From Sphingobium sp. YR768 (lineage in GTDB: Bacteria > Pseudomonadota > Alphaproteobacteria > Sphingomonadales > Sphingomonadaceae), in NCBI RefSeq assembly GCF_900111125.1, contig NZ_FOGE01000001.1, positions 248,001 to 312,000 of the forward strand: DNA of 64,000 bases. Direction: 5' to 3'. Under the pieces are notes generated by a model, which saw nothing but the letters and a program-made list of their open reading frames with translations, was not told where the DNA came from and ran no database searches. A program made the position numbers and the translations under genes. This document shows positions 20,983 to 60,816 of this stretch, in pieces. Position 1 is the first letter of the stretch. Each line of letters starts with the position of its first letter.

Positions 20983-21028
20983 CGTTCCTGCGCAGGGCGG
21001 AACTGGGCTCCTGCCTTCGCAGGAGCAC
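20983..21028. repeat. REP-like inverted pair, GCTCCTGCGAAGGCAGGAGC family (diverged left half)
   Basis: The right half is GGGCTCCTGCCTTCGCAGGAGCAC, an intact palindrome; the left half (GTTCCTGCGCAGGGCGGAAC) is a diverged copy. It sits between the pepA stop and holC start and belongs to the same family as 50559, 52433, 54561 and 60740. Confidence 0.75.
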
Positions 21029-50558: not shown

Positions 50559-50624
50559 GTGCTCCTGCGAAGGCAGGAGCCCAGTTCAGACCGTGGGACT
50601 GGGCTCCTGCCTTCGCAGGAGCAC
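50559..50624. repeat. REPIN: paired GCTCCTGCGAAGGCAGGAGC units
   Basis: Two 26-bp units, exact inverted copies, with a 14-bp spacer. Between the ends of two convergent genes; may stop transcription from both sides. Confidence 0.9.
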
Positions 50625-52432: not shown

Positions 52433-52507
52433 GTGCTCCTGCGAACGCAGGAGCCCAGGGTCGAACCAAGTGCCCTACATCCCGGGCTCCGGCCTTCGCC
52501 GGAGCAC
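52433..52507. repeat. REPIN of the GCTCCTGCGAAGGCAGGAGC family (diverged right unit)
   Basis: The left unit is GTGCTCCTGCGAACGCAGGAGC, the right unit reads GGGCTCCGGCCTTCGCCGGAGC. It separates the VOC gene from the DUF1428 gene inside an otherwise tight minus-strand run. Confidence 0.85.
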
Positions 52508-54135: not shown

Positions 54136-54430
54136 GCACCAGACCGCACAGGATCAGCCCGGCCGCCACAAGCCGCGCCGGGCTGATCGCCTCGCCCAGA
54201 AAAGCGACCCCCACCGCGAACGCGCCCAGGGCGCCGATCCCCGTCCAGATCATATAGGCCGTGCCCAGCGGCAGGCTGCGCATCGCCAGCGACAGCAGGC
54301 CGAAACTGGCGATCATTGCACCCAGCGTGATCAGGCTGGGGATCAGTCGCGTGAACCCCTGCGACTGTTTCATCGCAAAGGCCCAGATGATTTCCAGCAG
54401 ACCGGCAAAAAATAACGCAATCCAGGCCAT
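54110..54430 (-). CDS. gdx: Guanidinium exporter Gdx (SugE), SMR family
   Basis: 106 residues with four membrane spans. The N-terminus M-A-W-I-A-L-F-F-A-G-L-L-E-I-I-W-A has the essential Glu of small multidrug-resistance proteins (Glu13). G-T-A-Y-M-I-W-T-G-I-G-A in span 3 is the Gdx/SugE-type pattern. Members of this branch export guanidinium in exchange for protons as an antiparallel dimer. The leader upstream (54434-54503) has features of a guanidine-II riboswitch. Convergent overlap of 26 bp with the HxlR gene. Confidence 0.9.
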   Translation of the reverse strand: MAWIALFFAGLLEIIWAFAMKQSQGFTRLIPSLITLGAMIASFGLLSLAMRSLPLGTAYMIWTGIGALGAFAVGVAFLGEAISPARLVAAGLILCGLVLMKLSAQG

Positions 54431-54433
54431 GAC

Positions 54434-54503
54434 GGCTCTCCTTCAAGAGAGCCGGGCCGTCCCGGACTTGAAACCCGCGCGATGCAGGGGAGGACGTGGC
54501 CTC
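54434..54503 (-). promoter_or_regulatory. Candidate guanidine-II (mini-ykkC)-like riboswitch in the gdx leader
   Basis: Read on the minus strand, a hairpin CCGGG-ACGG-CCCGG (54465-54452) has the ACGR tetraloop that defines guanidine-II hairpins. An upstream hairpin GAGG-CCACGT-CCTC (54503-54490) contains ACG but not a strict ACGR loop. Directly downstream, GGCTCTC (54453-54447) and GAGAGCC (54440-54434) form a 7-bp stem holding the AAGGAG ribosome site, and its first two bases are shared with the ACGG hairpin, so the two structures compete. The target gene fits exactly. The irregular first hairpin is the weak point. Confidence 0.5.
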
Positions 54504-54517
54504 GCTTGTCGGGAAGA

Positions 54518-54546
54518 CAGATAGGCCTGCCCTATACAGGAGGCAA
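54518..54546 (-). promoter_or_regulatory. Sigma70-like promoter of gdx
   Basis: On the minus strand TTGCCT, a 17-bp spacer and TATCTG give a start near 54510, about 80 nt before the gdx ATG, just upstream of the candidate riboswitch hairpins. Confidence 0.5.
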
Positions 54547-54560
54547 GCCCAGCAATCACC

Positions 54561-54635
54561 GTGCTCCTGCGAAAGCAGGAGCCCAGTGTCGAACGATGTG
54601 CCCAGCATTCTGGGCTCCTGCTTTCGCAGGAGCAC
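54561..54635. repeat. REPIN of the GCTCCTGCGAAAGCAGGAGC variant
   Basis: Two inverted units with an A-A instead of A-G at the centre of each (GCTCCTGCGAAAGCAGGAGC). It lies between the gdx promoter and the end of the SDR gene. Confidence 0.88.
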
Positions 54636-54641
54636 TGATAC

Positions 54642-60739: not shown

Positions 60740-60816
60740 GTGTTCCTGCGAAAGCAGGAACCCAGGGTTTTGCGGACAGCGCTTGCCGCTCTGGGCTCCA
60801 CATTTCGCAGGAGCAC
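60740..60816. repeat. REPIN of the CTCCTGCGAAAGCAGGAG family, partly decayed
   Basis: The left unit is GTTCCTGCGAAAGCAGGAAC; the right unit reads CTCCACATTTCGCAGGAG, with three bases out of symmetry. It fills most of the ubiG to DUF1801 gap. Confidence 0.8.

Follow-up and report, generated by a model that had tools for sequence, protein, structure and literature searches.

A candidate hexaloop variant of the guanidine-II riboswitch in gdx leaders of Sphingobium sp. YR768 and other Alphaproteobacteria

The leader of a small exporter gene of Sphingobium sp. YR768 combines a hairpin bearing the loop of guanidine-II riboswitches with an upstream hairpin whose loop has six bases, which raises the question of whether it is a diverged guanidine-II element, an element reduced to a single hairpin, or a chance resemblance. 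The leader was analyzed within the window, the whole stretch of 64,000 nucleotides, and compared with leaders of related genomes. The 106-aa product of the gene is an SMR protein (match to PF00893). Its best NCBIfam model is SugE, at 120 bits and just below the cut-off of 126, and a search of the PDB returned 8vxu (E 2.6e-29) and 6wk5 (E 6.1e-29), both of which we take to be Gdx-Clo, against E 1.9e-12 for EmrE. By these comparisons the product appears nearer to the Gdx/SugE than to the Qac/EmrE proteins and is assigned to the Gdx subtype. A protein search of the same genome gave no second match to it at E <= 0.001.

The elements of the leader are collected in Table 1. The coordinates and the gene matches confirm the first-pass annotation in placing a CCGGG-ACGG-CCCGG hairpin with a guanidine-II loop (P2) directly before a Gdx-type SMR gene, and in describing an upstream hairpin (P1) with ACGT inside a 6-nt loop. 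That annotation had also proposed that the ACGG hairpin shares two bases with a 7-bp stem covering AAGGAG, and this holds as well: G54453 and G54452 are common to both, the overlap is exactly two bases, and the arms of the stem fit each other in 155 elements (see below). Motifs like TTGCCT-N17-TATCTG were found in 22 of 40 same-genus leaders (mean 0.1 in shuffles), and their position ahead of P1 points to transcription probably starting a few bases 5' of that hairpin. In Magnetospirillum, a mapped transcription start lies 7 nt 5' of a guanidine-II element (PMC9549626).

Table 1. Elements of the gdx leader in the window. Parts are given 5' to 3' on the minus strand.
Feature	Position	Strand	Basis or remark
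gdx-type SMR exporter gene, 106 aa	54113..54430	-	start codon at 54430, stop codon 54110-54112
Ribosome-site hairpin over AAGGAG: GGCTCTC (54453-54447), loop TTGAAG (54446-54441), GAGAGCC (54440-54434)	54434..54453	-	sequence, fold; arm-pairing test in 155 relatives
Ribosome-binding site AAGGAG	54438..54443	-	sequence
P2 hairpin with canonical guanidine-II loop: CCGGG (54465-54461), loop ACGG (54460-54457), CCCGG (54456-54452)	54452..54465	-	sequence, alignment, relatives
Conserved unpaired AAGU immediately 5' of P2	54466..54469	-	base counts in 155 elements
Linker hairpin CCUGC-AUCGC-GCGGG between P1 and P2	54474..54488	-	MFE; arm test in 150 relatives; 73.1% of cells paired
P1 hairpin with conserved 6-nt loop: GAGG (54503-54500), loop CCACGT (CCACGU in RNA; 54499-54494), CCTC (54493-54490)	54490..54503	-	sequence, alignment, arm test, relatives
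Promoter-like motif TTGCCT-N17-TATCTG	54518..54546	-	sequence; same-genus leaders

An interspersed palindromic repeat, CTGCGAAAGCAGGAGCCCAG, occurs with its variants at window positions 54561-54635, 21003-21022, 50565-50618, 52439-52458 and 60746-60810 (8 matches at up to 3 mismatches, against 0.01 expected), and one pair of them builds a long inverted repeat immediately 5' of the gdx promoter. Matches to microRNA families at 54549-54639 were rejected as spurious because this repeat pair makes a long inverted repeat; their source is the interspersed palindrome, outside the leader.

Within the window, perfect 5-bp stems closing an ACGR loop were found four times, against a mean of 1.7 in 30 order-1 Markov copies, and the leader folded only modestly better than its shuffles (z -1.67), with 12 of 200 equalling or surpassing it. 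The ACGG hairpin by itself is not improbable and proves little; as P2 alone is compatible with chance, the comparison of leaders settles the question. Orthologues of gdx were collected by protein searches that covered 94 same-genus, 347 family and 289 class genomes, yielding 233 SMR loci and 217 unique leader-plus-gene pairs. The orthologue set of 153 unique leaders (145 classified, plus 8 others in the category "rfam", each of which is also among the places of the family search) leaves out SMR places at 42% identity or less in the same-genus search and six further places (G524, G482, the second of G635, G686, G532 and G502). P2 was called by rule as a stem of at least 4 bp around ACG whose loop is preceded by G, located 18-75 nt ahead of the start codon; nine rows were classed by hand (L088, L091, L105, L112, L172, L175 and L223 as canonical, L247 as CCACGU and L077 as CCAAAT).

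In this set the P1 loop is a hexaloop in 95 leaders (CCACGU 90, CCACGC 2, CCACGA 1, CAACGU 1, CAACGA 1), a pentaloop in 2 (AACGA), a canonical ACGN tetraloop in 23 (ACGA 20, ACGG 2, ACGC 1) and degraded in 1 (CCAAAU); 31 leaders have no P2 by rule, some of them holding partial or degenerate hairpins (e.g. L106 and L156), and one lies at a contig end. The hexaloop is carried by 39 of 42 leaders of the same genus but by only 2 of 34 in the class sample, one of these from the same family as the window, whereas 18 of those 34 are canonical. The conservation of the leader in relatives exceeds chance. The first-pass annotation had left the choice between a diverged version and a single-hairpin variant, the latter to be recognized by a first hairpin that varies. 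Such variation was not seen, P2 being accompanied by a P1 loop lacking ACG in just one leader (L077), and because P1 and its 6-nt loop are both conserved alongside P2, the diverged two-hairpin version is favored over the single hairpin. At one and the same leader position the loops form the graded series ACGA, AACGA, CAACGA, CCACGA and CCACGU, which suggests that the hexaloop descended from the canonical loop.

Three further loci deviate from these patterns. In L004 (genome G026), a 92% identical gdx has a leader from which both P1 and P2 have been lost; GGAGAGCCGTC is kept before the start codon and the sequence upstream differs. Two elements stand before SMR-like frames: one in G468 (L301/L335) with P1 CCACGA and a P2 loop GCGA, and one in G538 (L302/L334) with P1 UAACGU and a P2 pentaloop AACGG, the frame of the latter being interrupted by stops.

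Among 155 unique hexaloop elements the P1 loop is CCACGU in 150 and the P2 loop ACGG in 153 and ACGC in 2, although the constancy of ACG is partly by construction, because the element finder required ACG in both loops and the P2 letters and loop were fixed in the rows from the pattern scan. The three bases that make up the AAG before P2 are A in 153, A in 131 and G in 153 of these elements. In the 89 elements derived from protein searches, the P2 stem is CCGGG/CCCGG in 87 and the linker measures 15-38 nt (24 nt in the window), where about 7-40 nt is given for guanidine-II (PMC7544219).

For covariation, 137 of 157 hexaloop segments were kept and 131 aligned (L071, L086, L146, L265, L280 and L289 were left out). 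The named structure pairs in 90.9% of the cells of this alignment compared to 86.0% in shuffles, and 72 cells are changed on both sides compared to 24, with shuffles that leave relatedness in place; the number of further pair types was not exceptional (19 against 16.8 in shuffles, with 62 of 500 shuffles as high). Pairing reaches 92.7% of cells in P1, 73.1% in the linker hairpin and 100% in P2, and P1 closes with G-C in 101 of the 131 rows and with A-U in the other 30, never with a mismatch. When arms were exchanged among relatives, again leaving relatedness in place, own arms paired better than shuffled ones in P1 (-6.83 against -6.04 kcal/mol, sd 0.14, n = 155), in the linker hairpin (-8.16 against -6.42 kcal/mol, sd 0.14, n = 150) and in the ribosome-site hairpin (-11.22 against -8.77 kcal/mol, sd 0.17, n = 155). 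The P1, linker and ribosome-site stems vary with compensation, and the loops are fixed. P2 gave no covariation signal because its nearly invariant stem hardly varies. The base immediately 5' of P2 (54466 in the window) is U in 103, A in 13 and C in 7 of the elements with a G-C closing pair in P1, and A in 27 and U in 5 of those with A-U. This association is a hint of a tertiary contact, inseparable from ancestry; with one independent pair on starred branches, a coupling is not claimed.

The distribution of the element was followed by a pattern scan of named species genomes, which gave at least 120 stretches at no fewer than 123 places, with an SMR start downstream of 76 of the 123 places listed; one of these 76, L223, is a canonical leader in which CCACGT occurs by chance. 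The listed matches include Sphingomonadales, Acetobacteraceae, Roseomonadaceae, Methylobacterium, Reyranella, Henriciella, Ciceribacter, a Paracoccus MAG and, within Caulobacteraceae, Brevundimonas, Caulobacter, Phenylobacterium and Asticcacaulis. Among these matches, the hexaloop form occurs in several alphaproteobacterial orders and rarely before non-SMR genes. Listed places in Actinomycetota and other phyla look like chance, with P1 stems of 0-3 bp by a simple count and no SMR start, and were discarded. In a weakly resolved Gdx tree that includes 85 of the 157 hexaloop rows, all 85 fall in a single one of the two main groups. This group (SH-aLRT 88) comprises 111 rows, the others being 7 canonical, 2 pentaloop and 17 element-free; between hexaloop rows and those with a tetraloop or pentaloop there are 8 changes.

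The proposed search with the mini-ykkC covariance model did not recover the site. At cut-off, an Rfam search of the window gave no match; under permissive settings the guanidine-II model (RF01068) scored the window leader at 16.5 bits (E 0.72), below its gathering cut-off of 32 bits, and a search of the window's genome with this model returned no match at E <= 1. In the family search, 3 of 298 genomes pass the cut-off of RF01068. Among hand-chosen loci, 20 of each kind, the model detected no hexaloop locus and 12 canonical ones, missing the other 8. Most gdx leaders sampled from the family of the window escape the standard Rfam model. A covariance model of the hexaloop subtype (R1), which was built with the window's own leader included, gives that leader 73.8 bits and matches 52 of 298 family and 7 of 385 class genomes; a few of its matches are not hexaloop, e.g. 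G154 at 73387, G160 and G145.

A few elements stand before other genes. UAAP1/UAAP2-type proteins act in guanidine assimilation, and in a Rhodovastum MAG (L267, 5273-5330, plus strand) a hexaloop element precedes genes of this type (DUF1989), with scores of 199 and 253 bits, below the respective curated NCBIfam cut-offs of 206 and 285 bits; judged by these matches, this would be a guanidine-degradation type of gene context. In two Sphingopyxis genomes and in G154, gdx is followed by a second guanidine-II-like element before a stand-alone nuoA (PF00507), with the loop CCACGU in Sphingopyxis sp. LC81 (L193/L345) and Sphingopyxis witflariensis (L271/L344) and CAACGU in G154 (L332). All three genomes have another nuoA elsewhere, which in the two genomes read is followed by a frame recognized by eye as NuoB. 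In G101 (L343) gdx and a stand-alone nuoA are adjacent, and no second P2 was found between them. One further element, in a single genome (L320), precedes a different SMR gene, for which Smr is the nearest model. Hexaloop elements also precede a CBU_0592 family membrane protein (NF047864) in Brevundimonas sp. Leaf363 (L217) and a 59-aa membrane-like frame, which gave no Pfam match, in a Mesorhizobium MAG (L255).

With this anatomy, its conservation, the compensating changes in three stems and the gene context in hand, we put at roughly 0.6 the probability that the leader is a guanidine-II-like riboswitch of an unrecognized hexaloop subtype, namely a guanidinium-dependent translational ON switch in which P1 is the kissing partner of P2. 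In the ligand-free state, the terminal two G's of P2 would be part of the hairpin over AAGGAG. Guanidinium would bind at the kissing contact between the loops (C-G and G-C pairs, possibly with U-A as a third), stabilizing P1 and P2 and returning the two G's to P2, so that the ribosome-site hairpin would be weakened and translation of the exporter turned on. We infer the ligand, the kiss and the ON direction, the last because P2 overlaps the ribosome-site hairpin and because the accepted guanidine-II model is an ON switch (PMC7544219, PMC13064478).

The solved structures, as described in PMC5486947, allow the effect of the longer loop to be considered. In them two tetraloops kiss via C-G and G-C pairs, the fourth base of the tetraloop is extruded, and each guanidinium lies on the Hoogsteen edge of a G, is bonded to the phosphates of the tight turn and stacks on the closing G. 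The hexaloop leaves ACG intact, releases the fourth base (in most cases U) and adds CC at the tight turn; its U could form a third kissing pair with the A of the P2 loop in 151 of 155 elements. The pocket around the G of P2 should survive, because it needs only the C of its partner, whereas the pocket of P1 itself is probably lost or remodelled, because the two inserted bases fall at the turn that holds the ligand in the canonical structures. This same point weighs on the reading in which the element is functionally canonical, accommodating the extra C's with ACG in the standard geometry and binding two guanidinium ions cooperatively with nothing but its sequence changed. The ACG core of both loops and the unchanged gene context agree with it, and the extruded fourth base could vary (PMC5486947), but the insertion sits at the ligand-holding turn and the closing pair on which the ligand stacks is A-U, not G-C, in 32 of 155 elements, and we regard this reading as rather unlikely. 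A changed ligand, with the hexaloop switch sensing a guanidine derivative instead of guanidinium, has precedents in the methyl- and aminoguanidine tolerated by canonical pockets (PMC5486947) and in a guanidine-IV variant for which there is evidence that the ligand differs (PMC9788692); the context is nevertheless chiefly an exporter, as in canonical elements, plus one of guanidine-degradation type, and we consider it improbable.

Folding does not by itself reproduce a switch. With P2 forced or forbidden, the median accessibility of the ribosome site is 0.21 or 0.20, respectively, and it is higher with P2 forced in 87 of 157 cases, so secondary structure alone gives no switch, and a switch, if real, would depend on tertiary contacts or on folding during transcription. 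Such unchanged accessibility is what would be expected of a conserved leader structure that is bound by a protein or has no ligand, its guanidine-II resemblance being a relic, yet both loops retain the ACG core and intermediates connect the hexaloop to canonical elements at the same position, leaving this reading slightly more improbable still. Little credit can be given to masking of the start codon, in which CCA and the 5' arm of P1 would pair with the UGG of an AUGGCC start in the ligand-free state: AGGCCA (P1 5' arm and loop) is complementary to UGGCCU of the first codons in the window, and such pairs are present in some predicted folds, but CCACGU is kept before nuoA copies that start with GUGCUG and AUGCCG, which disfavors this role of the hexaloop, and the complementarity is shorter in elements with an A-U closing pair. 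A single-hairpin variant or a chance hairpin has next to no probability, for although ACGR hairpins arise by chance in such sequence and the ACGG hairpin alone might be one, the joint conservation of P1 and P2 in relatives rules chance out.

The hexaloop leader is thus described here as a newly recognized variant of the guanidine-II kind. It shares with guanidine-II (mini-ykkC, RF01068) two GC-rich hairpins joined by a linker, an ACG core in both loops, an ACGR loop in P2, an export or degradation gene context, a position just 5' of the ribosome site of an SMR exporter and the overlap of P2 with the ribosome-site hairpin. It differs in the six-base CCACGU in place of ACGR in P1, in a P1 stem that can be closed by A-U, frequently with a base bulged out two pairs below, in the nearly invariant P2 stem preceded by AAG, and in a score far below the cut-off. 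The leader probably functions as guanidine-II riboswitches do; we do not assign it to RF01068 because P1 lacks an ACGR loop and the score lies below the cut-off of the model. In the open-licence literature we found no paper on the CCACGU loop; the founding papers (Weinberg 2007, Sherlock 2017) and supplementary alignments lay outside the scope of this search and may already have included it.

Two systems offer comparisons. For the H4-H5 hairpins of vertebrate CA8, PMC12335538 speculates that a non-consensus loop partners a consensus loop and only one of them binds guanidine, and a defective loop partnering a good one at a single binding site is also what the hexaloop recalls; there the change is a C-to-U in a tetraloop of elephant RNA, whereas here a hexaloop is fixed in bacterial gdx leaders. 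The guanidine-IV variant Gd4v is likewise a deviating relative of a guanidine riboswitch class recovered by comparative genomics, but it belongs to another class and its gene context has changed, whereas the hexaloop mostly stays with the same exporter (PMC9788692).

A more specific version of the hexaloop switch is offered tentatively and as somewhat doubtful, namely that it is an asymmetric, one-ion subtype spread over several orders of Alphaproteobacteria, in which P1 would be a non-binding docking loop of three pairs and some copies would control an extra nuoA. If true, the nuoA copies would tie guanidine sensing to respiration in some lineages, and they raise the question of whether a guanidine-induced complex I subunit might protect respiration. 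Guanidine-II is among the smallest classes of riboswitch, and its model assumes a pair of similar ACGR loops and cooperative binding of two ligands. A subtype in which nature has remodelled one loop, and the graded intermediates that accompany it, would make the need for both pockets and for cooperativity directly testable, and it points to new candidate target genes.
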